From a virus, in IMG/VR virus record IMGVR_UViG_3300034013_000240, positions 1 to 64,000 of that record: a DNA stretch of 64,000 nt, one strand, 5' to 3'. Both the position numbers and the translations under genes were made by a program. Below the pieces are notes generated by a model. The model searched no databases. It was given only the letters and a program-made list of their open reading frames with translations, and was not told the origin of the DNA. Of the stretch, positions 17,149 through 62,612 are shown piece by piece (position 1 is the stretch's first letter; each line of letters opens with the position of its first letter).

Positions 17149-18717
17149 ATGATAGAAAAAGACATTTATTTTAAAGAACAAGCAAAACTCAAGCTTGTAA
17201 ATGGAGTGAATATTGTGGCTGATGCCGTAAAAGTTACTCTTGGTGCTGGTGGTAGGAATGTTGTAATTGAGGATGCTAGAGGTCTTCCTCATAGTACTAA
17301 AGATGGTGTTACCGTAGCTAACTCAATAACTTTATCAGATCCAGTAGAAAATCTTGGTGCAAGCATCATTAAGCAAGCATCAAACCAGTCTGCTGACAAT
17401 GCTGGGGATGGCTCAACTACCGTTTGTGTATTAACTCAATCTATTATTAACGAGGCAATCGGAATAATCGACGAAAACACAAATATCACTCAATTCAAGA
17501 AAGGAATGGAGAGTGCTGCAAAAGAAATATCACTACAACTAAAAAGAGATAGTAAAAAGGTTAATGCCTCAGCGCTAAAAAGTGTTGCTCGTATTTCCGC
17601 TAATAACGACTACGAGTTAGGTAATATCATTGCAGAGGCTTATAAAAAAGTTGGTGTTAATGGCGTTGTTACGATGGAGGAAAGTATGTCAAGTGAAACT
17701 TATGTAGATGTTATTGATGGTACAAAAATCAATAAAGGATATGCTAGTCCGTACTTAATAACCAATGTAGAGAAGCAAGAATGCGTATTAGATAATCCAT
17801 TAGTATTGGTTTCTGACCAAGAGATTAAGAATATGGAGGATATTTTAGATGTGGCTGAAGTAGCTATGAGAAATAAAAGAAGCCTCTTGATTATAGCTGA
17901 TGTTGAGACTGGGGTTATGAATGCTTTAAATGTAAATAAAGCCAAAGGTAATATCAAAGTAAATGTTATTCAGCCAGAAGGTATAGGTGTTAAAAGATTT
18001 GAACTTCTTCAAGACTTATGCGTTTTAACAGGTGCTAAACTAGCTTCTGATGAAACTGGGGATGACCTATCAATCTTAGACGCATCGTTTCTTGGTGAAG
18101 CTATAAAGTGCATCTCTACTGACTCTAAGACAGTGTTGATTACGGATCGTTCAAAACACAAGGATAACATCTCCGATGTTGTTAAGACAGTTACTGACTC
18201 GATGAATAACAGTGAGAATAAAATGAATATGTGGCATTACAAAGATAGGCTTAGTCGTTTATGTGGTGGTGTGGCTGTGATTAAAGTAGGGGCTAATAGC
18301 GAGGTTGAAATGAAAGAGAAGAAAGATAGAGTAGATGACGCTATCAAATCAACTAGAGCTGCTTTAGAGGAAGGTATTCTTCCGGGTGGAGGAATTGCAT
18401 TACTTAAACAATATCTTTTAAATGATGCAGAGGGAAGCGCTTTTGAGCTAGGCTATAAATGTGTGTTCAATTCGTTATACTCTCCTTTCCATAACATCTT
18501 AAAAAATGCAGGTGTTAATTCTGGTGATGTTTATAAAAAGTTAATTGACGAGAAAGAGAATTTTGGATTTAACGTAGTAACTGAGGAGTTTGGTGACATG
18601 TATAAAATGGGTGTTATTGATGCTACTAAAGTAGTTAGAAACGCAATTGAAAATGCGGTATCTGTATCGTCTATTTTATTAACAACTGAAGCAACTATAA
18701 CAAATAAAAGAGCATAA
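17149..18717 (+). CDS. groEL: Phage-encoded GroEL-type chaperonin (Hsp60), 522 aa
   Basis: Full-length group I chaperonin. Nucleotide-site residues align with E. coli numbering almost one to one: TLGAGGRNV (30-38; the usual P is A), KDGVTVA with D52, GDGSTT with D87 (86-91). Later come the apical segment RSLLIIADVETGVMNALNVN, the EMKEKKDRVDDAIKSTRAAL block (D398 equivalent) and GILPGGGIALL. The sequence ends ILLTTEATITNKRA and lacks the Gly-Gly-Met tail. At 522 residues it is about 25 shorter than bacterial GroEL. A GroES-like gene follows two bases after the stop. It should fold phage (perhaps capsid or neck) proteins in the cytoplasm; ring number is not predictable here. Confidence 0.95.
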   Translation: MIEKDIYFKEQAKLKLVNGVNIVADAVKVTLGAGGRNVVIEDARGLPHSTKDGVTVANSITLSDPVENLGASIIKQASNQSADNAGDGSTTVCVLTQSIINEAIGIIDENTNITQFKKGMESAAKEISLQLKRDSKKVNASALKSVARISANNDYELGNIIAEAYKKVGVNGVVTMEESMSSETYVDVIDGTKINKGYASPYLITNVEKQECVLDNPLVLVSDQEIKNMEDILDVAEVAMRNKRSLLIIADVETGVMNALNVNKAKGNIKVNVIQPEGIGVKRFELLQDLCVLTGAKLASDETGDDLSILDASFLGEAIKCISTDSKTVLITDRSKHKDNISDVVKTVTDSMNNSENKMNMWHYKDRLSRLCGGVAVIKVGANSEVEMKEKKDRVDDAIKSTRAALEEGILPGGGIALLKQYLLNDAEGSAFELGYKCVFNSLYSPFHNILKNAGVNSGDVYKKLIDEKENFGFNVVTEEFGDMYKMGVIDATKVVRNAIENAVSVSSILLTTEATITNKRA

Positions 18718-27484: not shown

Positions 27485-28825
27485 ATGGGAAGAATACAAG
27501 ATTATCCAATAGATGCAACTCCTGAAAATGGTGACATACTATTAGGAACAAATGTTTTAGATGCTAAAAAGTCAAAGAATTACTCTATTCAATCAATAGT
27601 GTCTCTAGTTCCTGTAGGTCCTACTGGCTCTCAAGGCATAGCTGGTCCATCAGGTCCAATAGGTCCAGTAGGTCCGTCTGGTCTTAATTGGAAAGGGGTT
27701 TGGAACACCAATACATCTTATGTTAAAGATGATGTTGTTAGTTTTGGAGGGTCTTCATGGTTTTGCATATCTCCAATATCTACATCAGGAAACAACAATC
27801 CTACAATTGATATTTCTACTTGGTCTCTATTAGCTTCTCAAGGAGCGCAAGGTGTTCAAGGTCCTCAAGGTCCTACTGGAGCTCAAGGTATTCAAGGTAA
27901 TGTAGGTCCTGAAGGAGGCATTGGTCCAGTTGGTCCTGCTGGTCTTAACTGGAGAGGCTCTTGGAGTTCAGAAGGAATTTATATTGAGGATGATGCCGTT
28001 GCTTTTGAGGGAGCTTCTTGGTTTTGCATTAACAACGTGTCGGAGAATGATACTCCTCCTCCGGCAGATACTTCTAATTGGGCATTATTAGCTTCTCAAG
28101 GAGCGCAAGGTCCTGCCGGTAGTAATGGTTCTCAAGGAATACAAGGAGTTCAAGGAATACAAGGAATTCAAGGAGTTCCAGGTCCAATAGGTCCTCAAGG
28201 AGTTCCAGGTCCTGCCGGAACAATCACTTTCACTAACGGCTCTGTTTCCGCTACAACTAGTCAATCTTCAGCATCGAATGTATTGTTGTTTGATTTTGTA
28301 ACTGTAACTGGTAATGGAAACCAAAATGTCAGACTTCCTGAAAACCAACCAATAGGTAAGGTCATACAAGTAACTTATAATTCAGTAGGTGTTCAAAAGG
28401 TTCAGATAAACGTTAGAACATTTGACTTACAATCTAAAATATCAATAAATAGTTCTAATTCAAATTCAGCTATTTATTATTTAAGTAATTACGATACCGT
28501 AAAGTTTATTTCAAGAGGTAGTAATTTTTGGACGGCAGAGTATGTTTCTGGAACTAATTTATCATTCAATGATATGCCTATTGTAAATTCAAACAACTAC
28601 AATATAGTTGAAACAATATATAACGGAACAACTTCTGAACTGTCTTTGTCTCAGTTAAATACTACTTATCCTAGTGTTTCGACAATTGTTGATACGCCAG
28701 TCGGACTAAAGGTTTATTGCCCAAATATATCAACTGGAGGTCTTGTTTACGTTAGAGTTGTAAACAACGAACCGCCATTATTGAATGATGTTTGGGTGTC
28801 TATGCCTATAGAAATTGTAGCTTAA
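27485..28825 (+). CDS. Collagen-like tail fibre with two carbohydrate-binding-like modules, 446 aa
   Basis: The N-terminal domain (MGRIQDYPIDATPENGDILL) is related to that of the 860-aa fibre. Three Gly-X-Y collagen segments follow: at ~42-60 (GPTGSQGIAGPSGPIGPVGP), ~120-150 (GAQGVQGPQGPTGAQGIQG) and ~205-245. Between them are two modules of the form LNWKGVWNTNTSYVKDDVVS...WFC and LNWRGSWSSEGIYIEDDAVA...WFC, which resemble CBM5/12 chitin-binding-like modules (W, DDVV, W pattern). The C-terminus is beta-rich. An extended trimeric fibre that binds polysaccharide is the best guess. Confidence 0.8.
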   Translation: MGRIQDYPIDATPENGDILLGTNVLDAKKSKNYSIQSIVSLVPVGPTGSQGIAGPSGPIGPVGPSGLNWKGVWNTNTSYVKDDVVSFGGSSWFCISPISTSGNNNPTIDISTWSLLASQGAQGVQGPQGPTGAQGIQGNVGPEGGIGPVGPAGLNWRGSWSSEGIYIEDDAVAFEGASWFCINNVSENDTPPPADTSNWALLASQGAQGPAGSNGSQGIQGVQGIQGIQGVPGPIGPQGVPGPAGTITFTNGSVSATTSQSSASNVLLFDFVTVTGNGNQNVRLPENQPIGKVIQVTYNSVGVQKVQINVRTFDLQSKISINSSNSNSAIYYLSNYDTVKFISRGSNFWTAEYVSGTNLSFNDMPIVNSNNYNIVETIYNGTTSELSLSQLNTTYPSVSTIVDTPVGLKVYCPNISTGGLVYVRVVNNEPPLLNDVWVSMPIEIVA

Positions 28826-48670: not shown

Positions 48671-51600
48671 ATGGAAGAGTTAGATGAATTTGGTATCCCA
48701 ATAAAAAAAATAGGAGTAGATGAATTTGGTATTCCTTTAAAAAAAAAAGACGTTTCTCAACAAGTTGGTCCAAAAACTGCAAAGGTTTCTACTACTTCGG
48801 TAGGAAAAAAATCTTTATTGGATACCGTAGGTCAAAAGAGGGATGCGGCATCGGTTTCTTCCAATGGAAAATCTAAAATACCAGAGGGTAAACTTTCTAA
48901 ATTAAAAGGAGAGTTTGACGAATCTGTTAGAAACAAACCAAAGACTATAAAACAAAAAATACAAGGAGAGGAGATGGGTTTATTAACTAAACCTAAATCC
49001 TCTATTGGTGTTACTAAGGTTCAAGACCAAAATAGATTTGTAGCTACTAAGAAAAAAGAAGAGGAGCATGATTTCAACTTCTTTGGTGTAGATTCGTTGA
49101 AAAAAATGGATGAAACTGGCAAGATAAAATATGCGAATGACGAAGTAGAGTATGACGTTGATAAAAATAAATTTTATTTCTTTTTAAACGAGAACTTAGG
49201 TAATGCTAAGATGAAAAAGAGAAATGATTATATAAACAACTTTGAACTTCAAGAGATAGAGGATGAGTATAATGAATTAAAAAATGGTGGAGGTTTCTGG
49301 GATAAAACAAAGAAAGTTATAGAGAGTGGTATTGTAAATATGTTTGACGAAGCTTATTCTGACAAATCTAGTTACGAAGAAGCTATAGCTAAGTCTAAGG
49401 ATTTATTCTATGATGAAAGACAAGAGGTGGTGAGTGAGGCTAAAGCAAAAGGAGAGTCTTTAACTCAAGCTCAAATAAATGCTAGAATTGAAAAAACCTT
49501 TAAGGATAGAAGGATTAATGAGATATTATCTAAGAAAAGACAAGATACTGGTAGGAATTTAACTGATGCAGAACAATACGCATTATCTAAAGATGTAATA
49601 TCTAATTCAAGTAAATTATCTGAAAAACATAAAGAGAAGTCTGAAAATGTAAACTCTGTATATGTAACAACAAAAGGTCTTCTTGATGAGAAAAAAAGTA
49701 TAGAGGACATTTATAATTCAGACCCTACACTTATAACAAAAGAACAAGAAGATAGGTATAAGGATATTTCAGAAAAAATACAATTAAACAATGCGTATAT
49801 AAAAGCCACAATGTTAGAATTGAATGATGCTGAGAAAAAAATAAAGACAGCTCAAGAAGAGGTTGCTGATTATACAATAGAAAACAGTAGATTAAACGAG
49901 TTCTTCAAAAGAGTTACTGCTTCTGGTGTTTCATTTCTTGGCTCTACAGCTGAATTTGCTGGAAAATATGGAGGAACAGGATTGTCAATAATGCCTGGAG
50001 GTAAGAATTTAGGAGAGGGTGTTAAGATGCTGTCTGAAAAAGTAAGCGATAAACTATCTGGCTACGCTTCAGACATAAGAACTGGTAAAGATTATGATGG
50101 ATTTAAAATTGGGGGACTACCTGAAACTAAAGAAGTAAATAGTGTTGGTGATTTTGTTAATCAGATTACAGAGGTGGTTGGAGATAATACATTTTTAGTA
50201 GCTGGATTAACGGCAACTGGTCCTACTGGAATTGGTCTTATGGCTGTAGAGATGGCTGGTGATAAATCAAGAGAAATTAGAAATGAAAAACAAGAGTTTA
50301 ATAAGCTATCTGAAGAAGCAAAAGTAAAAGGAGAAAAATCTTTTGATTATAACGGTGAAAAATATAAAGTAGGAGATGAACTGTATGGAGACTTTTCTTC
50401 TTACGCTCTTCCTCTAGCTTGGGGAGCTACATCAGTACTTCCTATGGCTAAACAATTAAAGTATTTAAAAGGAGCTAAATCAGCTATTCAAGCCGTAGAG
50501 AGAGAATCTCCAGAGTTAATAAAAAAATCTCTAATGACCAAAGTAAAAGATGGGACTAAAGATTATATTGGGCACTCTTTATCTTTAGCTAAAGATTTAA
50601 AAATAATGTCTTTATCTCAAGCGGCTTTAGACGATATTGTAGGTAAGGATGTTGATTACTTTAAAGTAGCTTCAGATATGGCTACTATTAGAGATTCTTT
50701 TGTTTTACACGGAATGAATAAGGCTGCGGCTATGTCTGTCTCAAAAGCTGCTAAACCATATATGACTACTGAAGAAGTAAATACCATAGATGGTAACGCT
50801 AACTTGATATTTGATTTGACAAATAGATTAAGAGATCCTTCAATAGAGTCTAGTGATAAAGCTATCATAAAGTCTCAATTAGATAGATTAGTAAAAGAGA
50901 GCGATGGATTCATAGGTGGTGTTTTAGATAGAATGTCTGAAATGAGTGATGTAGATTATAGTAAAGTAATAAGTTTAGCTAAGGAGTCTTCTAATTTAAG
51001 AAAAGAAGCTAGTGATATACAAGCATCTTCATTTACCAAAACAGAAAAAGCTTATGCTTTAGAAAAAGTTAAAAAAGAATATATAGAGAACGAGAAAAAG
51101 TTAAGAGATTTAAGAGTAAACTACACGAAAAGAACTGATGGATTTTATGGTCTTTCTGACCAAGAAAAAATAAAGTTAAAAGAAAGAGCCGCTACTGAAT
51201 TAAAAGAAAAGAGAGGTGATGAAGAAAACTTCACTATCAACGATAGAGAGATAACTATTAAAGCCACAGAGATTTACGATAGAGAAAACAATGTAGAGGA
51301 AAACAAAACAACAGAGGAAGACGATATAGTGAATAATAACATAAATACTGGTCTAGGAATAGCTAAATCTTATTCTAGCTTAGATTCTGTACCTGAATTC
51401 ATGAGACCGTTAGCTAATAAAAGTTCTTTTGGAGAACAAAAAATTGGTATGTTTGGTAAAAAAGAAAAAATACAAATGTATAACGTAACAGCTACTGCTG
51501 AAGAACTTCAAGTAGCTTACGATAATTTTTACGGAAAAAAAGAAATCAATAAAAAGGATAATCCATACTACTATAATACTGACCCAGAGAGAGGAGAATT

Positions 51601-54600
51601 AGAATTAAGACCTCTTTCAATACCAGAAGGATACACGTCAATAAAAGAGATTCAGAATGGATTTGAATTAGATGCTTGGAAAAAACAGAAAACTAAACCT
51701 ACAGAAACTACTATCAATGAAAAAGAAAATGAAGTAGAGAGATTGAGAGATGAGGAGCAAAAAGAATACGAAAGTGTTGACCTAAATGATAAAGTTAAAC
51801 TTGGTGAAATATATAGTAGATACGATAAATTAATATCGCCATTATTAAAAGAAATAGAAGCCTCTAAAGCAAAGGAAGAAACTTCTGTAGAATTACCTGA
51901 AAAAACCACAGAGGAAAAAATAGCGGAACTAGAGACTGAACTTGAGACAATAAAAGACGATAACGACCCAAGAATTACCGAAATAGATAAAGAGATAAGT
52001 GATTTAGAGGAAGTTAAAAACATAGAGGCAAATAAGCCTGAAACTGTAGTTGCTAAAGAAGAACCACTTACCACTCCTGAAGGTATTGATATTGCAACTG
52101 AGAAGTCTAATGAAATAGAATCAACAGAAGCTATCGAATCAACTTCTACTGAAGAGAATATTAATGATTCAAAAGAAGATGTGAAAGAAAGAAAACCTAA
52201 GCAAACAGTAGAGGGTTTAAAAGAAGAAAATATTGATTTAAAAAACCAATTAACCGACTTATTCAAAGGAGCTGTAGATGCTTTAAAAATAACTGAGAGA
52301 AGTTTTAAGGACAAAATAAGAGATGTTAATAATGCTGTGTCAAAAGCTACAGAATTATTTAATGCAGAGCTTAAAAACAAGAAACTAACTCCAGCTCAAC
52401 ATAGAAATATATTGAACAAATTATCTAAGCTATCTAAAAGTAGCAACAGTAAAACATTAGAGAGTAATTTGAATGACGTTGTTAATTCTATAGAAAAAGC
52501 TTCTTATAAGGCTAATAAAGTAGAGTTATTATCTGGAATTAATAGATCCATTAAAAAAGCCATAAGCAACCTGTCTAATACTAGGCTAGGTGGTAATAGT
52601 GGTAATATAGAGATATTTAAAAAATTACTATCTATAGACCCTAAAAACATTAGCGACAGATATGTTCAAGAATACAAAGATGTTGTTGATTTACTTGCTG
52701 ACCCTTTAAAAATAAAGCAATCAGGTATTTCGCTATTAGATATTGAGAGAAGAGCTAGAGAGGTATTGTATGAATATGGTTTTGATAAGACAAATCTTGA
52801 GAACGCTTCTAGCAAGTACTCTGATTACATACATGAGAATGATTTAGAAATGACTAGCGAAGGTTTTGAAGAAGTTATTGGTAAAATGAAGACTAAAGAC
52901 TTGCTGTCTGAAGAAGAATACCAATCTTTATTAGATAATAAGTCAAAAATAATTCCTAGAAAATCCACAGAAAGAACATCAAAAGAACCATATACCTCTG
53001 AAGAAAGAACTGAGATAAAGAAATCAGTTAAGAGCAGTATTAAAGAATACAAGGACGGAGCTGTAAAGGATGTTGATTTTATAAACAACGAAGAAAAAGA
53101 GGTTGTTGATTCTGTATTTAACGCAATGGACAGAATAGGAGATGAGTTCATGGATTCGTTATCAGATAAAGACTTAGCTAGAGTAGAAAACACTATAGCT
53201 CTTTTGAATCAAGGAATTGTTCAAGGCGACTTAAATTTCTTCGTTAATAATAAGATAAAATCTTACGAGAAGTCTCAGAAGGTAAAACCAAAAATAAAAG
53301 AGATAGATACTAAATGGAGGTCTTTAATCATAATCCCAAAAATTAAAAAGACACTATTTGATGTTGTTGATTTTTTAAAGACAGATTACAGAAAAGATAA
53401 AAACCTATCAAAAATAGAGCAAGCTGATAGGGTTTTACAAACGGCTGTTGATAAAGCTTTTGGTATTACTGGAGATGTACTTTATAATAATTTACTAGCA
53501 GAACAAGCTTCAAACGCGGGTAAGGACCAAAACTATAGGCTCGCAATGAAGAATAAGTATGTTAACCCAATAATTAAATTCTTAGACAAGACGTATAGAG
53601 GAGATAAAATCAAACAAGTAGAGTCGATGATGAGAATAGATATGTTTGCTTACCAAAGAATGTTTGAGAATGGTAGTCCTGGAGAAAACCATAGAAAAAT
53701 ATCAGATATAGTTAAATCAATAAAGAGCAAGAGTAATAATCTATACTCTAAAAAAGAGGTTGATTTTATAACGAAAGAATTAGAGAAGTTTGCAGAACTT
53801 GATTTTGATAGCGATAGATACTACGAAACATTAACTGACGCAGAGAAAACTATAATTAGAAAGATGGATGAATTTTATGAGTCAGATATTACAAATAAAG
53901 CTGTAGCAACCAGTAAGTTTGGTTCTGGAAAAACATTAAATCTAGCAAAATTTTATAGACCAGTATCTATGGTTTTTGATGGTGAAACTCAGGTTAGTTT
54001 AGAGGAGGTTATTAAGAATAGTAATGATGAGTTCTTTAAGCCTAGTTTTAAAGCTGGGAACTTGGAGAAGAAAGAGGGAGGTCTTGAAACAGAGGGTATG
54101 ATTATTAACATAAAAGACCCATTATTTGCTATGGAGAAATACATAGACGATATTTCATTAAGATACCATAATTTAGATTCAGTAAGAGTTGTAAATGATG
54201 CTTTAAAGACCATAAGAGAAAGTTCCGACATAAAAGGAGATTCAAAGTCTGAGAGAATTGTAAAGTATTTTCAAGATATTGTAAATAAAGATGTTGAGAA
54301 TTTAGTTGCTGGAAGTGTTGGTGCGCAAATATTCTCTGGTAATTCAGAAGTTGCTATTGCTTCCAATAAGATACTTAGTAACGCTTCTGTTAATAAATTG
54401 ATAGGTATCTCAAAAGTAGTATCTGAGTCTTATTCAAATATAGTTAGAACATCAGCTAGTTTATCAACTTACGTTAAAGGAATTGGCGTATATACTGAAC
54501 TAATTAAAGGTAATTTAGATATAGATAAGATTTTCTATAACATTGGTTTTTCACAAACCGGTAGAACATTTGGAGATATTTTTGATTTTAAAATAAAAAA

Positions 54601-56137
54601 AGATAGTGCTAACGTAGATGTTCCTAAAGATTCTGGAAACAAAGCTCCAAATAGAATACCTTCTGAGATTGTCAATGAAATATATAAAATGTTAAACAAG
54701 ACTGGTATAGAGGATGCTAAGTTGTTATCTGAGGAGATAGCTAAAGCTATGATTGAAACTCCAGACAAGACTATCGCAAAACCACTTTCGTTAGGTATAT
54801 TTGATAGAGTGTTTGAGAAGTTAACTGGAGAAGAGCCAGAATACAGAAAGATAGAGAATGGTGATGTTGATTATTTAGACAAACATAAGGAAAATATTAA
54901 AGAAGCCGTATTCTCTGCTAATAAAACAGTAGCTATGATGATTGGTAGTAAAAATCCATTTGAAATGGTTTCTAATAATATGGTTAATATTAAAGACCCT
55001 ACATATAAAAAACTTTATACTCAATTTAATTCGTTCTTTACAAATCACTCAAAATCACAAGCTACAGCTAATTATGTAGAGATACAAAAACTTTTTAGAA
55101 CGAACGAGTATGAGACTGCGGCAGATAAACTTCAGGCTTATAAAACAATAGCATCTGTTATAGCTTCTCAGTATGCTTATAAGTCAGCAATGAGGGCTCT
55201 TCAAGGATATGTTGGGACTGCTGCTGCTAGAGCATTAGGGTACACTATATTTGAAGACGAGGAAGATAAGGAAGGTATTTTTGCTAGAGAGTTGACAGGA
55301 TCTGTTTTAGATGTGATGAACGCCTCTTCAGGAAATATAAGTAAAATACCTTCTAATATGGCTATTGGTTATTTAGATACAAAGTACGGTAGAGATATTG
55401 GATTAAGACAAGGGTTAAGAGGTTATGGAACTTCAGTAGGTTTTGGGTACGACCCTAAGAAATCTATAGATGATAACGTTAAAAACTCTTTGTTATCCGC
55501 TTCTGGTAGTTATGGTGTGGCTAATAAAGATATTAACTCTTTAGTTGATAGTTTTATGGATGGAGATGTTGCTAATATTTTACTAAAAGGAGCTTCTTTA
55601 GCTTCTCCGATACCGTTATTGAAAGATGTAAACTCAGCTAAATCTTACATAAAGTATAACACAATACCTAGTATTGAAGACCAAAGAGAAATATATAAGA
55701 GTGGTAGCTCTAAAGATATTAAAGAGTTAGAAAACAGTATATCGAATTATGTAAATACAATTGTTTACAATAAATACCTTAAAGCATACAAAGAGCGTGG
55801 AAGATTTAACTCAAGTGAAATGTCTAGTATAAGAAAAGAGTTAGTGGATAATATACACGTATTAACAAAAGGAGATTATGACAAACTATTGAATGATGCT
55901 GGTGAAAAAGCATTAATTAGAATAAAAGTAAGAACTGGGAAAGTAAGTAAAGATGCTGAATCTTATTTACAGATGAAAGACTCGGAAATAAAATCAGATT
56001 TAGTCATTAGATATAGAGATGCTAATGATGAAGAAAAGAAAAAATTAGTTAAGGTTATGAATGAGCTAGCCGACTTGAATAAAATAAGTCAAAGCATAGT
56101 AAATGAAATAAAAAGGATTGAGATAAAATCTAAGTAA
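48671..56137 (+). CDS. Giant internal virion (ejection) protein, 2488 aa
   Basis: Longest gene of the window, the last of the late block. The start holds an internal duplication, LDEFGIPIKKIG and VDEFGIPLKKKD (residues ~4-27). The first ~1000 residues are helical and Lys/Glu-rich; a Gly-rich hydrophobic zone at ~415-460 (SGVSFLGSTAEFAGKYGGTG) and another at ~510-535 (FLVAGLTATGPTGIGLMAVE) may insert in membranes. Residues ~1000-1220 form an acidic Glu/Thr/Lys linker. The C-terminal ~600 residues have LSTYVKGIGVYTELIKGNLD and SASGSYGVANKDINSLVDSF. I looked for a DxDGD RNA-polymerase motif and for a lysozyme motif and found neither. Probably ejected into the host to form a conduit. Confidence 0.72.
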   Translation: MEELDEFGIPIKKIGVDEFGIPLKKKDVSQQVGPKTAKVSTTSVGKKSLLDTVGQKRDAASVSSNGKSKIPEGKLSKLKGEFDESVRNKPKTIKQKIQGEEMGLLTKPKSSIGVTKVQDQNRFVATKKKEEEHDFNFFGVDSLKKMDETGKIKYANDEVEYDVDKNKFYFFLNENLGNAKMKKRNDYINNFELQEIEDEYNELKNGGGFWDKTKKVIESGIVNMFDEAYSDKSSYEEAIAKSKDLFYDERQEVVSEAKAKGESLTQAQINARIEKTFKDRRINEILSKKRQDTGRNLTDAEQYALSKDVISNSSKLSEKHKEKSENVNSVYVTTKGLLDEKKSIEDIYNSDPTLITKEQEDRYKDISEKIQLNNAYIKATMLELNDAEKKIKTAQEEVADYTIENSRLNEFFKRVTASGVSFLGSTAEFAGKYGGTGLSIMPGGKNLGEGVKMLSEKVSDKLSGYASDIRTGKDYDGFKIGGLPETKEVNSVGDFVNQITEVVGDNTFLVAGLTATGPTGIGLMAVEMAGDKSREIRNEKQEFNKLSEEAKVKGEKSFDYNGEKYKVGDELYGDFSSYALPLAWGATSVLPMAKQLKYLKGAKSAIQAVERESPELIKKSLMTKVKDGTKDYIGHSLSLAKDLKIMSLSQAALDDIVGKDVDYFKVASDMATIRDSFVLHGMNKAAAMSVSKAAKPYMTTEEVNTIDGNANLIFDLTNRLRDPSIESSDKAIIKSQLDRLVKESDGFIGGVLDRMSEMSDVDYSKVISLAKESSNLRKEASDIQASSFTKTEKAYALEKVKKEYIENEKKLRDLRVNYTKRTDGFYGLSDQEKIKLKERAATELKEKRGDEENFTINDREITIKATEIYDRENNVEENKTTEEDDIVNNNINTGLGIAKSYSSLDSVPEFMRPLANKSSFGEQKIGMFGKKEKIQMYNVTATAEELQVAYDNFYGKKEINKKDNPYYYNTDPERGELELRPLSIPEGYTSIKEIQNGFELDAWKKQKTKPTETTINEKENEVERLRDEEQKEYESVDLNDKVKLGEIYSRYDKLISPLLKEIEASKAKEETSVELPEKTTEEKIAELETELETIKDDNDPRITEIDKEISDLEEVKNIEANKPETVVAKEEPLTTPEGIDIATEKSNEIESTEAIESTSTEENINDSKEDVKERKPKQTVEGLKEENIDLKNQLTDLFKGAVDALKITERSFKDKIRDVNNAVSKATELFNAELKNKKLTPAQHRNILNKLSKLSKSSNSKTLESNLNDVVNSIEKASYKANKVELLSGINRSIKKAISNLSNTRLGGNSGNIEIFKKLLSIDPKNISDRYVQEYKDVVDLLADPLKIKQSGISLLDIERRAREVLYEYGFDKTNLENASSKYSDYIHENDLEMTSEGFEEVIGKMKTKDLLSEEEYQSLLDNKSKIIPRKSTERTSKEPYTSEERTEIKKSVKSSIKEYKDGAVKDVDFINNEEKEVVDSVFNAMDRIGDEFMDSLSDKDLARVENTIALLNQGIVQGDLNFFVNNKIKSYEKSQKVKPKIKEIDTKWRSLIIIPKIKKTLFDVVDFLKTDYRKDKNLSKIEQADRVLQTAVDKAFGITGDVLYNNLLAEQASNAGKDQNYRLAMKNKYVNPIIKFLDKTYRGDKIKQVESMMRIDMFAYQRMFENGSPGENHRKISDIVKSIKSKSNNLYSKKEVDFITKELEKFAELDFDSDRYYETLTDAEKTIIRKMDEFYESDITNKAVATSKFGSGKTLNLAKFYRPVSMVFDGETQVSLEEVIKNSNDEFFKPSFKAGNLEKKEGGLETEGMIINIKDPLFAMEKYIDDISLRYHNLDSVRVVNDALKTIRESSDIKGDSKSERIVKYFQDIVNKDVENLVAGSVGAQIFSGNSEVAIASNKILSNASVNKLIGISKVVSESYSNIVRTSASLSTYVKGIGVYTELIKGNLDIDKIFYNIGFSQTGRTFGDIFDFKIKKDSANVDVPKDSGNKAPNRIPSEIVNEIYKMLNKTGIEDAKLLSEEIAKAMIETPDKTIAKPLSLGIFDRVFEKLTGEEPEYRKIENGDVDYLDKHKENIKEAVFSANKTVAMMIGSKNPFEMVSNNMVNIKDPTYKKLYTQFNSFFTNHSKSQATANYVEIQKLFRTNEYETAADKLQAYKTIASVIASQYAYKSAMRALQGYVGTAAARALGYTIFEDEEDKEGIFARELTGSVLDVMNASSGNISKIPSNMAIGYLDTKYGRDIGLRQGLRGYGTSVGFGYDPKKSIDDNVKNSLLSASGSYGVANKDINSLVDSFMDGDVANILLKGASLASPIPLLKDVNSAKSYIKYNTIPSIEDQREIYKSGSSKDIKELENSISNYVNTIVYNKYLKAYKERGRFNSSEMSSIRKELVDNIHVLTKGDYDKLLNDAGEKALIRIKVRTGKVSKDAESYLQMKDSEIKSDLVIRYRDANDEEKKKLVKVMNELADLNKISQSIVNEIKRIEIKSK

Positions 56138-56140
56138 AGA

Positions 56141-56170
56141 AAAACCCCTCTATATTGAGGGGTTTAATAT
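56141..56170. terminator. Bidirectional terminator at the late/early junction
   Basis: AAACCCCTC, loop TATATT, GAGGGGTTT with A/T tracts on both sides. It ends the 41-kb late block and the convergent minus operon; it overlaps the end of the 149-aa gene. Confidence 0.88.
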
Positions 56171-56599
56171 TTTAATTACTTCACTTAAAACGAAATCGCA
56201 TTGACCTTGATTTCTAGGTGTGAATAATATGTAATCTAAATTGTTATCAGCTATCCATTTCTTAAATAACTTAAATCTCATTTGAAAAACATCTGTAGCT
56301 AAACCTTTACACTCTATAATTATTCTTTGATTTCCATTCTCAATAATAAAGTCTGGTTTGTAAGTTACGGCTAAATGGTTTTTACCTCCCTTATTAGTAA
56401 GAGATGTTTTACTACTCATAGTTTTTTCGTAAGATGGATTTGGAAAATAAAATTTATCTATGATTGTGAACGATTCTTCTTCATATTTAGCTTTTATACC
56501 ATAATCATCTAATACTTTAAACATGTACATCTCTAGGCGACTTTGAAAGTTCTTGCCTTTGTAGGTTGTTTTTTTTGCGTTTATTAATTTTCTACCCAT
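56150..56599 (-). CDS. DUF1064-like PD-(D/E)XK endonuclease, 149 aa
   Basis: The pattern is: KNFQSRLEMYMFKVLDDYGI (conserved Glu), YKPDFIIENGNQRIIIECKG (P-D ... E-x-K nuclease core), FQMRFKLFKKWIADNNLDYI (C-terminal helix). It matches the DUF1064 phage family, considered Holliday-junction resolvase-like. About 130-150 residues is normal. The stretch DKFYF/FTII contains a dispersed 12-mer copy. Cutting of branched DNA before packaging is the likely role. Confidence 0.8.
   Translation of the reverse strand: MGRKLINAKKTTYKGKNFQSRLEMYMFKVLDDYGIKAKYEEESFTIIDKFYFPNPSYEKTMSSKTSLTNKGGKNHLAVTYKPDFIIENGNQRIIIECKGLATDVFQMRFKLFKKWIADNNLDYILFTPRNQGQCDFVLSEVIKILNPSI
56460..56471 (+). repeat. Dispersed 12-mer ATGATTGTGAAC, copy 6
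   Basis: Exact copy inside the nuclease gene, read as FTII on the minus strand. Confidence 0.85.
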
Positions 56600-56628: not shown

Positions 56629-57747
56629 TTAATGAGAATCTCCAATATTATTCTTCTCTCCGTATATTAAATAATCTGGATTAATTACTTTAGCTACTTT
56701 TTTACGTTCACCTGAAATATGTTTAATTACAATTCCTTCATGTGGCACTTTTGTTCCCGGAATGAAATTGTTGAATACAAATCCGTCTTGAATTTCTTGA
56801 TTCCATAATCCTTCGTAAAGAACTTCTACATGAGGAAGGTCTAATGCTGCTAGAGTAATAACTTCTGCTACTTCTGTCGCACAATATTCTCCATTTGTTT
56901 TAATATCGAATGCTGCAAATTGAATATCAGTTAAACCATACTCGTAGTTCTTTTGAATACCTGCTCCATAAATTTCTCCGTAAAGAATTAATCCTTCACC
57001 CAATTCAGAACCTTGACGTTTTGCTTCTTGCCAAAGTTTTTCTTTAATACCATACTTATCAGCAACTGTTCTCCAAACATCAGTAGAATAAAATCCTTGA
57101 GAATCACTTCCTTTTTCTACGTTGTGTGAACCATAAATATATTCATAGTCAACTAAAGCATCAGCTATTCTAAAGAATTTTTTTAATTTATCTAAAAACG
57201 ACAATTTACTTTTCTTTACAATACCATACCTAGCATTTGTACCGTGAATCTTTCTAGTAATCTGAACTGTATCTTCTTCTGTAAACATTCCCGCTACGTT
57301 TTTAAGGTTTGGGAATTTATAGTAAACATGGAAGTTTGGATTATCTTTATATTTAATTTTTCTTCCTGAAGAAAGTTGGACTTGTCTAACTGGCGGTTCG
57401 TATTTTGTAATACCTAATTCACTCATTAAATCATCTCCGTCTCTGTGAACAATAGAGCTAAACTTATAAGGAATCAATAAGCATTCAGAGTAAACTCCAC
57501 GTAGTTTTACCGTACGAACTCTTTGTCCTTTACGAAGATAACTAGTTACACCCATTTTATCTGATAATTCTTGAGGAATTACAGCATCAGTAGTAGCTAC
57601 TATTATCAAATCACCATCTTTATATTCTCCTTTTTTAGTGATTGCACTCCATCCACCAACGATTGCTAATTCAATATTATCAGCACCATCAATTGGTTTT
57701 ATTTCTTTAATTGTTGCTGTGTAGCAAACTGAATTTTGATTTTCCAT
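56629..57747 (-). CDS. RNA ligase (DraRnl/Rnl5-like), 372 aa
   Basis: Nucleotidyltransferase ligase with N-terminal OB-like domain (residues ~1-115: CYTATIKEIKPIDGADNIEL) and adenylation domain. Catalytic motif I is TRKIHGTNARYG with K166 as the AMP-accepting lysine; motif IIIa IQFAAFDIK, motif IV HEGIVIKHI and motif V KVAKVINPDYL are in order. N-terminal OB plus ligase, no C-terminal extension, fits the Deinococcus DRB0094-type. It seals 3'-OH/5'-PO4 nicks in RNA, probably repairing tRNA or other RNA cut by host defences. Its neighbours are a kinase and a phosphoesterase. Confidence 0.88.
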   Translation of the reverse strand: MENQNSVCYTATIKEIKPIDGADNIELAIVGGWSAITKKGEYKDGDLIIVATTDAVIPQELSDKMGVTSYLRKGQRVRTVKLRGVYSECLLIPYKFSSIVHRDGDDLMSELGITKYEPPVRQVQLSSGRKIKYKDNPNFHVYYKFPNLKNVAGMFTEEDTVQITRKIHGTNARYGIVKKSKLSFLDKLKKFFRIADALVDYEYIYGSHNVEKGSDSQGFYSTDVWRTVADKYGIKEKLWQEAKRQGSELGEGLILYGEIYGAGIQKNYEYGLTDIQFAAFDIKTNGEYCATEVAEVITLAALDLPHVEVLYEGLWNQEIQDGFVFNNFIPGTKVPHEGIVIKHISGERKKVAKVINPDYLIYGEKNNIGDSH

Positions 57748-57750
57748 TTA

Positions 57751-58140
57751 TTATAAAATTTTTACGTTAAACCTTCTCGCCATTTCTTCTATTTTTTCTT
57801 TAGGAACATTATGAATATTCTCTCCACCATGTCTATTTTCTACTACTAATGAGTACGCTCTATATCCATGTTCTTTAGCTAATTCAAAGTAATAATCCAT
57901 TTCCCAAGTCTGAGTAAATGTGTTTGATACTACAACTTTAGGCACTTGATTTATCATCCAAATCCTTACAGCATTTTGACACCAAGCATGCGCTTCTTTT
58001 AATTTAGACGCATCAAATTCATATTCACCAACTAAATCAGTAAAATACATATCAGCTTCAATATGATTCTCTCCTATTGATTTTGCTAATGTTGATTTAC
58101 CAGCTCCAGGTAATCCTCTTAATAAAAACAACTCCTTCAT
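57751..58140 (-). CDS. P-loop kinase (polynucleotide-kinase-like), 129 aa
   Basis: Walker A at residues 9-17 (GLPGAGKST), then EADMYF/DLVGEYEFD as in zeta-toxin/PNK-type AAA_33 kinases, and the segment KVVVSNTFTQTWEMDYYFEL. It is much shorter than T4 Pnk and lacks its phosphatase domain. Three bases before the RNA ligase start, so a kinase-ligase pair for RNA 5' ends is likely; substrate choice (RNA, DNA) is unproven. Confidence 0.82.
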   Translation of the reverse strand: MKELFLLRGLPGAGKSTLAKSIGENHIEADMYFTDLVGEYEFDASKLKEAHAWCQNAVRIWMINQVPKVVVSNTFTQTWEMDYYFELAKEHGYRAYSLVVENRHGGENIHNVPKEKIEEMARRFNVKIL

Positions 58141-58141
58141 T

Positions 58142-58789
58142 TTAAATTCTTTTTTCGTGGTGGTCTTTTGGTAGAGCTAATTTTTTAATTGGGCGACTAT
58201 CCATTATCTTAAACACTTCATCTAAAGATATAGGCTGTAGTTTGTTTCCATCAACACCAACATCCATCGCTTTACCCTCTGATATTCTTAAATGCAACGG
58301 TAAATGAACATGACCGTGTAAGTGAATAACGCCTTTACTCATATCGTGCCACGAAGCTATTGGATAGTGCATGCACACAAAACTAAACTTCTCAACATTT
58401 TTACCATTTGGTCTCCTTACGTCTAATCTTAAATATTGATTTACAGATGAAAATAATGCTTGAACACCATCTTTATCTTTTTCAATGTGATGGTCGTGAT
58501 TACCTAAAACTAAATGAATGTTTTTACATATTAATTGATTTCTAAATTCCTCAATCTTATCAAAGCCTCCAAACGACCAGTCTCCCAAGTGAATAAGAAT
58601 ATCATTCTCCATAACCACATTGTTTATATTACCTATTAACGATTGATTCATCTCATGAAGAGAATTGAAATCTCTAGCATACCCATTATTTACGGACCAT
58701 GCTGTAGTTGCTCTGCAAATATTTGAGTGTGAATAATGTGTATCACTAGTAAAAAACAATCTTTGTCCTTTCTCTAATACTATCTTCAT
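58142..58789 (-). CDS. Calcineurin-like metallophosphoesterase, 215 aa
   Basis: Full set of di-metal motifs in order: FTSDTHYSHSNI (D16, H18), HLGDWSFGG, LVLGNHDHH, CMHYPIAS and HLHGHVHLPL. It belongs to the small phage phosphoesterases. Directly upstream of the kinase (1 base) and ligase, it may supply the 3' or 2',3'-cyclic phosphate removal needed for RNA healing. Its substrate could also be cyclic nucleotide-type signals of host defence. Ends in a basic tail (KKLALPKDHHEKRI). Confidence 0.85.
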   Translation of the reverse strand: MKIVLEKGQRLFFTSDTHYSHSNICRATTAWSVNNGYARDFNSLHEMNQSLIGNINNVVMENDILIHLGDWSFGGFDKIEEFRNQLICKNIHLVLGNHDHHIEKDKDGVQALFSSVNQYLRLDVRRPNGKNVEKFSFVCMHYPIASWHDMSKGVIHLHGHVHLPLHLRISEGKAMDVGVDGNKLQPISLDEVFKIMDSRPIKKLALPKDHHEKRI

Positions 58790-59205
58790 GACCTATCTAT
58801 TAATGTGTCTAATGTATTTGTTGGTGGAAAAAACCTATCGCTTTTTAGAATTTTTCCTATAGGTCTTCTAGGGTCATAAATATTATCTCCATTTATAATT
58901 GGTTTTCCATTCTCATCCAGTTTGCTCATATTTGAAGAGTGTATTGCTCTAAAAGCTTCTTCAATTATGTTGTGCATTCCGTGTTGAACAGCTGTACCTA
59001 GTATTATGTAAAGACAATCTCCAATAGCGTCTAATACCTCAACTATATTCCCAGAGGAATTAGCTTCTTTATATTCATTTATCTCTTCCAATAACAAGTC
59101 AACTCTTAGTTCTTGAGTTTTGGCATCAACTAAAGTTGGTTTTTTATAGTAATCAATACCAAACGCTTCATTAAACTCGATTAAATTATTTATCTGTGTC
59201 TTCAT
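58786..59205 (-). CDS. MazG-like nucleotide pyrophosphohydrolase, 139 aa
   Basis: All-alpha NTP-PPase pattern: RVDLLLEEINEYKEANSSGN (E-E-x2-E), EVLDAIGDCLYIILGTAVQH (D of the EXXXD type), then FRAIHSSNMSKLDENGKPII. Such phage enzymes hydrolyse NTPs or possibly (p)ppGpp-related nucleotides, thereby shifting the pool or host stress signals. Its stop overlaps the phosphoesterase start (ATGA). Length is typical. Confidence 0.82.
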   Translation of the reverse strand: MKTQINNLIEFNEAFGIDYYKKPTLVDAKTQELRVDLLLEEINEYKEANSSGNIVEVLDAIGDCLYIILGTAVQHGMHNIIEEAFRAIHSSNMSKLDENGKPIINGDNIYDPRRPIGKILKSDRFFPPTNTLDTLIDRS

Positions 59206-61016: not shown

Positions 61017-62612
61017 TTAAGATTTGAATTTGTTTTTAATTATGTGAACATGTTGAGCTTTACCATTTGGATATATAACTACATTAGAATGCAACCAAGA
61101 ACTAGCTCCTTTATTATAACCCACCCTAAGATGAGTTAGTGTTCCTACGGATAAATGACCGTCCTCTCTGCATGGTTGATGTGTATGCCCAGTAATATTC
61201 TTGGTATTTAAGTTTTTAAACTGGATAACACCACCTCTACTTCCGTTAGACCCGATATGTCCATGTATAGCACATTCAAAACCAGAGATAGTAAGGCTAT
61301 CATTTATACCTAGACAATGAACATTTTTTACCATCCTGGCATTAAGGTATGCCGGTATAACACCTCTCTTGTCTTTTGATTCAATCATTAGATTAACTAA
61401 CTTTATATAAGCCTCTCTATTTGGTGATTTTCTCCAATCAACATCATTCATCCATCTATCTAAAAACTCGTCGTGATTACTTCTTACCATAACGAAGTTG
61501 TAATCATTATACTCGTTAAAGAAATCAACCATCTGAGATAACTCTTTTATTAAGTTATCAGAACCATCTTTCTCTCTCTCTAAAAGTATCAATGGATTTG
61601 CTCTCTCGTGATGAGAAATACTGTGACCATTGAAAACATCATGCACTATAATCTCCTTTGTTTTCACTAAATCAGCTAATTCAAAAGATACCTTTAACAC
61701 ATCTTCGTTTGTCTCTCCAAGATGTAAATCTCCAAATACAATAGCTTCAGCTCCGTTATGATTGTGAACACTACCTTCATCAACAAATAAATTCAAGTCG
61801 TAAAACGATCCATTGTTATCAGCTTGAACTTGTCTAACGTGAAACACATCACCATCTAACTCTACTAAAACAAATCCTAGTGTATGATGAAACTCTCCTT
61901 TTTTACCAGCTTTCGTGTCTGTATAGTTATTGACTGTTACTGCTCCAGTTGTTAATAGTAATTTGTTTGGATAACCATCTAATACCGGTAGGGATTTTAA
62001 ATGTACTCTAGGATGTCCTATAATACAGCTCTCAAGACCAGTTAACCCATTGAACCCTGATAACGGAGTCGAAGCTGTTGGTTGAATCCTAACGTCTGAA
62101 ACCACACATAAATATTCGTGAATATTGTGTCTGTTTGCATCTAAGTAAGGAATCACTCTTTTGTGCCAAGATAATGTTTTATTATCCTCTTTATCTTTCA
62201 TGCTTCTACTAGAATGCAATGATGTTGGATTTCTATACCTACCTGCCGTTATTAATATTTCGGCATCAAGGTATTTTGAATAAGCCTCTATATTATTTAA
62301 AAACCCATGATGAACCTCAGTTTCTGATTGAGCCCAAGAGATGATAAATCTTTTCTTGGTTTTATCGAACTGCTTAATCATAGCGTTTTTAAATTCATCA
62401 GACTCTTCTAAATTACATCCAGCTACATTGTTAGTTATAGCTCTCTTGTGTAACATCTTAGATACTGTTCTTCTTGATGTGTCAGAGTATGTATATCCAA
62501 ACTCTTCACATATTTTTTTAGTGCTTGATGTGATATTCTCACCTTCATCAAGCAAAGTTTTTACTTTAAGTATAAAATCTTTATTATACTTCTTGTCTTT
62601 TTTAAATTTCAT
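61017..62612 (-). CDS. T5 A1-like metallophosphoesterase/DNase, 531 aa
   Basis: N-terminal HTH-like segment (NITSSTKKICEEFGYTYSDT), a middle region with FIISWAQSETEVHHGFLNNI and EILITAGRYRNPTS that matches the N-terminal half of T5 A1-type proteins, then a calcineurin-like domain: VFGDLHLGE (~295), HDVFNGHSISHHE, MVRSNHDEFLDRW, ECAIHGHIGS and ITGHTHQPCRE. T5 A1 is needed for second-step DNA transfer and host DNA breakdown. Whether this protein plays that role is inference, but motif order and length (A1 ~556 aa) agree. Contains a copy of the dispersed 12-mer. Confidence 0.75.
   Translation of the reverse strand: MKFKKDKKYNKDFILKVKTLLDEGENITSSTKKICEEFGYTYSDTSRRTVSKMLHKRAITNNVAGCNLEESDEFKNAMIKQFDKTKKRFIISWAQSETEVHHGFLNNIEAYSKYLDAEILITAGRYRNPTSLHSSRSMKDKEDNKTLSWHKRVIPYLDANRHNIHEYLCVVSDVRIQPTASTPLSGFNGLTGLESCIIGHPRVHLKSLPVLDGYPNKLLLTTGAVTVNNYTDTKAGKKGEFHHTLGFVLVELDGDVFHVRQVQADNNGSFYDLNLFVDEGSVHNHNGAEAIVFGDLHLGETNEDVLKVSFELADLVKTKEIIVHDVFNGHSISHHERANPLILLEREKDGSDNLIKELSQMVDFFNEYNDYNFVMVRSNHDEFLDRWMNDVDWRKSPNREAYIKLVNLMIESKDKRGVIPAYLNARMVKNVHCLGINDSLTISGFECAIHGHIGSNGSRGGVIQFKNLNTKNITGHTHQPCREDGHLSVGTLTHLRVGYNKGASSWLHSNVVIYPNGKAQHVHIIKNKFKS
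61758..61769 (+). repeat. Dispersed 12-mer ATGATTGTGAAC, copy 7
   Basis: Exact copy within the T5 A1-like gene, read as VHNH on the minus strand. Confidence 0.85.

Follow-up and report, generated by a model that had tools for sequence, protein, structure and literature searches.

Analysis of a 64,000-base stretch of viral DNA, hereafter the window (part of a 67,413-base IMG/VR record), indicated that three minus-strand genes at 56629-58789 probably constitute a phage operon for RNA end-healing and sealing, likely restoring broken RNA of the translation system. The order of transcription is phosphoesterase, kinase, ligase, and the trio and its neighbors are located as follows:

58786-59205: MazG/PRA-PH protein, overlapping the phosphoesterase start by 4 bases
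58786-58789, minus strand: ATGA, the 4 bases shared by the MazG-like and phosphoesterase ORFs
58142-58789, minus strand: calcineurin-like metallophosphoesterase, 215 aa, phrog_547; metal ligands D16, H18, D70, N97, H141, H160 and H162
57751-58140, minus strand: predicted P-loop polynucleotide 5'-kinase, 129 aa, phrog_2071; Walker A GLPGAGKST, D30, R103
57748-57753, minus strand: kinase-ligase junction, an in-frame tandem stop TAA TAA immediately 5' of the ligase ATG
56629-57747, minus strand: predicted Rnl5-type (DraRnl/NgrRnl) ATP-dependent RNA ligase, 372 aa; N-terminal OB domain, K166 in KIHG
56150-56599: DUF1064, adjoining the ligase end of the trio

The three ORFs, their coordinates, their spacings (1 base between phosphoesterase and kinase, 3 bases between kinase and ligase) and the position of K166 in KIHG were all as claimed in an earlier note on this DNA. 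On reading the sequence, the kinase and ligase frames were found to be uninterrupted apart from the TAA TAA at their junction, and the 4-base overlap between the MazG-like and phosphoesterase ORFs suggests co-transcription. The MazG and DUF1064 genes, which the same note had joined with the trio into one block, were rejected as conserved members: among about 220 other trio-family loci scanned, no DUF1064 match was obtained, and MazG matches occurred in two other contigs only, kilobases from the module. Their position beside the window trio is incidental.

Elsewhere in the window, a single ORF of 2488 aa (48671-56137, plus strand) converges on the trio operon from the opposite strand, and a T5 A1-like DNA transfer protein is encoded at 61017-62612 (minus strand); in Cellulophaga phi17:2 a related protein and the phosphoesterase are two genes apart, a methylase lying between them. 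The window also encodes a Cpn60/GroEL-type chaperonin (17149-18717, plus strand; 522 aa, Pfam 1.6e-54) and, in the structural region, a protein that combines collagen-like repeats with a CBM5/12 carbohydrate-binding module (27485-28825, plus strand).

The ligase is confidently predicted to be an Rnl5-type RNA ligase. Pfam searches placed an OB-fold (PHA02142, PF21189; 2.4e-15) at residues 12-93 and RNA_ligase (PF09414; 8.4e-17) at residues 160-355; an OB domain ahead of the NTase domain is the Rnl5 architecture, and full-length Rnl5 similarity is present, a profile of 29 ligase relatives matching Naegleria gruberi NgrRnl (5cot) over its whole length (its residues 5-338, E=4e-75). K166, G169 and E258, which include the motif I KxxG lysine and the motif III/IIIa glutamate, are invariant throughout the alignment. 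Window-like ligases carry an extra charged segment at about residues 177-200, missing from the other Rnl5 ligases aligned.

DraRnl and NgrRnl seal 3'-OH RNA nicks held in duplex. Rnl5 ligases act on paired-strand nicks, and free anticodon-loop ends are the substrate of T4 Rnl1. Free anticodon-loop ends would thus be a less likely target of the window ligase than RNA cut in or near paired regions, or tRNA halves that are still together. Defence against PrrC-type anticodon nucleases, as suggested in the earlier note, is possible for the Rnl1 relatives of the module and a conjecture for the window.

Some ligase genes of relatives were interrupted by inserts of about 0.8-1.7 kb (L159:6863-8908, L167:7071-8580, L214:5407-8124 and L124:2665-4661). 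The last of these is an interrupted Rnl5 gene; in the Rnl1 genes the inserts share one common site, after FEIIY. The inserts carry endonuclease-like ORFs (NUMOD3; DUF559), which suggests self-splicing introns. A group I intron covariance search of the interrupted genes gave no Rfam intron match.

The kinase was confidently assigned, from profiles and a structure model, to the Pnkp-type fold and is a predicted polynucleotide kinase. It matched AAA_33 in Pfam (4.9e-12) and the polynucleotide kinase family phrog_505 among PHROGs (1.9e-9), and its profile matched T4 Pnkp (1ly1, 1.5e-7) and Pnkp1 (4xrp, 1e-6). The best PDB folds for its AlphaFold model (AF2, pLDDT 82.7) were the kinase of Clostridium Pnkp (CthPnkp) and T4 Pnkp. 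D30 aligns with the catalytic Asp position of T4 Pnkp, R103 is conserved, and Walker A and D30 are kept in nearly all full-length relatives. A point against the reading is that, in the profile alignment, Phe33 occupies the position of T4 Pnkp Arg38; an arginine there is not known to be required in all polynucleotide kinases. A nucleotide kinase was also considered and is disfavored, since CthPnkp and T4 Pnkp were the top folds despite weak P-loop kinase matches. The length of 129 aa given in the earlier note was correct, but its description of the enzyme as minimal implied an unusual reduction, and the family norm is about 126-140 aa.

The phosphoesterase matched Pfam Metallophos (4e-8) and phrog_547 (2e-43). 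Its profile matched aq_1665 (1xm7, 7e-19), which was also the best PDB fold for its AF2 model (pLDDT 89.7). All seven metal ligands (D, H, D, N, H, H, H) are present in the window protein and intact in 94 of 111 distinct relatives, and also in 3 truncated sequences where these are readable. Sequence kinship to the CthPnkp phosphatase was looked for and rejected: the PDB profile search gave no such match, aq_1665 being the best. We propose that the phosphoesterase is a healing enzyme for 2',3'-cyclic phosphate or 3'-phosphate ends.

A group of 14 distinct proteins of the phosphoesterase family share a loss of the metal site (D16N, H18Q, D70N, N97E and H141Y). They occur, mostly close to a kinase and a ligase, in L012, L013, L014, L017, L018, L021, L027, L031, L035, L036, L040, L079, L083 and L169, and an intact phosphoesterase copy is also present in at least the L031 record and L169. 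By their substitutions these 14 are predicted to be a conserved dead paralogue.

In order to examine the conservation of the trio, which the earlier note had made a test of its reading, IMG/VR was scanned with each of the three proteins. The scans yielded 213 loci, reduced by HMM annotation and deduplication to 155 distinct modules; counting was confined to the 71 of these whose flanks were at least 3 kb long on either side. A kinase was present in 56 of these 71. The kinase modules contained a phosphoesterase in 46 cases and a ligase in 48, and the three genes were found together in 44 of the 56. Dozens of further phage loci bring the same three families together, far beyond what chance would give. 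When 20 long records were searched whole, 19, the exception being G006, contained kinase and phosphoesterase matches each above 129 bits plus a ligase, with the kinase apart from the other module genes in two of the 19 (by about 22 kb in G019 and a few kb in G004). By the note's own test, the trio is strongly conserved as a unit, and the fold families of its predicted products are those that healing and sealing of RNA ends would require, as the note had read them.

Gene orders vary (PK5, K5P, PK1 and 1PK, where P is phosphoesterase, K kinase, 5 Rnl5 and 1 Rnl1), and this speaks for selection acting on the set, not for a block simply inherited. Clusters with an Rnl1-type ligase were found in the cultured phages rv5, JG004, phiPsa374, Boevelstad, JSF12, Pontus, ESCO5, KB57 and phiA009, as well as in an Erwinia phage and an Acinetobacter phage. 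In Caulobacter Cd1 and Vibrio Kuja the kinase occurs with the other trio genes not nearby. Bacterial Rnl5 loci showed a kinase beside the ligase in none of 79 and a phosphoesterase in 1 of 79; the whole trio was present on one MAG contig, L235, which resembles phage and was kept out of the 79. The linkage of the trio is phage-specific.

In several phages of Proteobacteria (L005, L223, L224, L229 and L230) the trio is located beside genes for ribose-phosphate pyrophosphokinase and nicotinamide phosphoribosyltransferase; such an arrangement might combine RNA repair and the replenishment of NAD in one counter-defence area.

Kinases partnered by Rnl1 and by Rnl5 were intermixed on the kinase tree, which is poorly resolved: at least 16 partner changes were counted, 4 of them forced by strongly supported branches. 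The phosphoesterase tree required at least 7 changes between Rnl1 and Rnl5, of which 5 were forced by strongly supported branches. Both ligases occur together in a few loci (L119, L165 and L209). Because bacterial Rnl5 loci are without the kinase, whereas partners are mixed in phages, Rnl5 looks like a recruit to a phage module in which Rnl1 is the other common ligase.

Profile comparisons also brought out phrog_8238, a PHROG family of 737 positions labelled RNA ligase. Of 42 kinases, 38 matched it near the N-terminus (positions 1-109 for the window kinase; best 5e-14); of 43 phosphoesterases, 27 matched its middle (193-253 for the window phosphoesterase; best 4e-6); and Rnl1 matched positions 435-683 (1e-17). 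From these matches the family looks like a natural kinase-phosphoesterase-Rnl1 fusion. The fused protein behind the profile was found neither by tblastn nor in the 20 whole records; in Streptomyces phage Daubenski the ligase and kinase are separate.

It could be that the kinase and ligase mend RNA and that the phosphoesterase shares their operon as a separate nucleotide phosphodiesterase, acting for example on cyclic nucleotide or small-molecule defence signals. In Flavobacterium phage immuto (76% identical) and in Cellulophaga phi17:2 there is a phosphoesterase but no kinase or ligase near it, so the protein can act alone; many phage phosphoesterases of the same family lie outside the module, and the nearest solved relative, aq_1665, is a protein without known function. 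Two things nevertheless suggest a joint function: the gene is found again and again with kinase and ligase, in changing order and across unrelated groups of phages, and the phrog_8238 profile holds all three. We consider a separate phosphodiesterase quite improbable.

The ligase exchange also bears on whether the module works instead on DNA or RNA-DNA hybrids in replication or recombination. T4-type kinases phosphorylate DNA as well, and Rnl5 enzymes accept a DNA strand at one side of the nick. However, the ligase is swapped with Rnl1, a single-stranded RNA ligase, and a distinct DNA ligase gene is close by in several trio phages, which makes a DNA or hybrid substrate very unlikely.

tRNA genes were present within the locus of about 12 kb in about half of the IMG/VR loci, with a maximum of 24 per locus. 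Going by the best-scoring tRNA matches listed, 15 of the 20 whole records had tRNA genes no more than 10 kb from the module, against 3.5 expected, and none of 20,000 trials of random placement reached 15; the strength of this linkage is approximate, since the records are related rather than independent and only the best-scoring matches were listed. No tRNA gene was found in the window's own 67-kb record. The linkage in relatives favors a general connection with tRNA.

The proximity of some modules to arrays of up to 24 tRNA genes would also be expected if the trio served the phage's own RNA, for example in maturation or quality control of a tRNA array or of RNA processed by phage nucleases, instead of counter-defence. 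The linkage is, however, equally expected if trio and tRNAs both counter tRNA cutting. The window's record is without tRNA genes, some trio records have just 3-7 among the matches listed, and the maturation of tRNA normally proceeds without end-healing and ligation; service to the phage's own RNA is unlikely.

When RNA is cut by a metal-independent route, a 2',3'-cyclic phosphate remains at one end and a 5'-OH at the other (PMC4411300), and the three predicted activities of the trio match what is needed after such a cut: clearing of the 3' end, phosphorylation of the 5' end and sealing. The phosphoesterase would convert the 2',3'-cyclic phosphate (or 3'-phosphate) to a 3'-OH; the Pnkp-type kinase would place a 5'-phosphate on the 5'-OH at the expense of ATP; and the Rnl5 ligase, after adenylating itself at K166, would transfer AMP to the 5'-phosphate and seal. 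The target would probably be tRNA nicked by host nucleases, its halves still held by pairing. Inference gives good support to a role of the trio in healing and sealing RNA ends; every enzymatic step, the substrate and the counter-defence role, which is plausible, are likewise what we infer. The spread of the trio through many large phages, often close to tRNA genes and with either of two ligases, suggests that it sustains protein synthesis when RNA is cut by the host.

More tentatively, the kinase and the calcineurin-type phosphoesterase might be a fixed pair served by swappable sealers, Rnl1 for loop breaks and Rnl5 for paired-strand breaks, so that the ligase reports on the RNA-cutting immunity of the hosts; the dead paralogue may be a non-enzymatic subunit in one lineage. 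This conjecture is less likely than not to be correct.

Ever more bacterial immune systems are known to work by cutting tRNA, and the escape of phages has so far been credited mostly to phage-borne tRNAs or to T4 Pnkp/Rnl1. If the reading as a repair operon is correct, a widespread kit with exchangeable ligases would be a second, testable escape route, functions would be given to genes commonly annotated 'ATPase' and 'phosphoesterase', and the type of break would be predictable from the type of ligase. It would also explain 3'-end healing in phages with a kinase and no T4-like phosphatase, a gap noted for Pseudomonas phage Adele, whose kinase was described in a 2025 report as lacking such a phosphatase (PMC12846349). 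In JG004, of the same genus, a phosphoesterase is located about 1.9 kb from the kinase and could supply the role missing from Adele's kinase.

RNA repair by phages has already been published, and the swappable three-protein form is a variant of it. Iyer et al. 2021 predicted for jumbo phages a pairing of ATP-grasp RNA ligases with polynucleotide kinases and with phosphoesterases, the latter calcineurin-like in a few phages, that would counter attack on translation (PMC7824862), so the general function stands published as a prediction. The passages on these sets name Rnl1, Rnl2, rare divergent ligases and RtcB, and an exchangeable Rnl5/Rnl1 three-gene operon is not described in them (PMC7824862). 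Our literature search found no account of a three-protein module with exchangeable Rnl5/Rnl1, although Burroughs and Aravind 2016 (gkw722) may contain one, and papers naming DraRnl/Rnl5 made only passing mention of this subject.

Among known arrangements, the Rnl1/ATPase/phosphoesterase cluster of rv5-like phages, Pakpunavirus, T5-like Vibrio phages and others has a homologous kinase and phosphoesterase beside an RNA ligase, which is of Rnl1 type there and Rnl5 in the window and many of its close relatives. T4 repairs RNA with a HAD phosphatase-kinase and Rnl1, and bacterial Pnkp unites three kinds of domain in one chain (PMC3400036). The trio shares with T4 Pnkp and Rnl1 the chemical logic and a homologous kinase fold, and Rnl1 partners many relatives of the module. 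As the earlier note had held, it also differs from T4; the T4 phosphatase is a HAD (DxDxT) domain fused to the kinase, whereas the window kinase ends at 129 aa and is accompanied by a separate Metallophos phosphoesterase and by Rnl5.

The closest working parallel, overlooked in that note, is CthPnkp of the bacterial Pnkp-Hen1 system. No Hen1 methyltransferase, of which that system has one, was recognised among the ORFs adjoining the trio. The CthPnkp phosphatase is calcineurin-type, and the trio resembles the bacterial enzyme in combining a Pnkp-type kinase, a phosphatase of this type and an ATP-dependent ligase. In CthPnkp, however, these are three domains of a single chain, whereas the window has three separate short ORFs, a ligase of the Rnl5 class and a phosphoesterase nearer to aq_1665. 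The operon would represent the logic of bacterial Pnkp divided among three polypeptides, with the ligase exchangeable.
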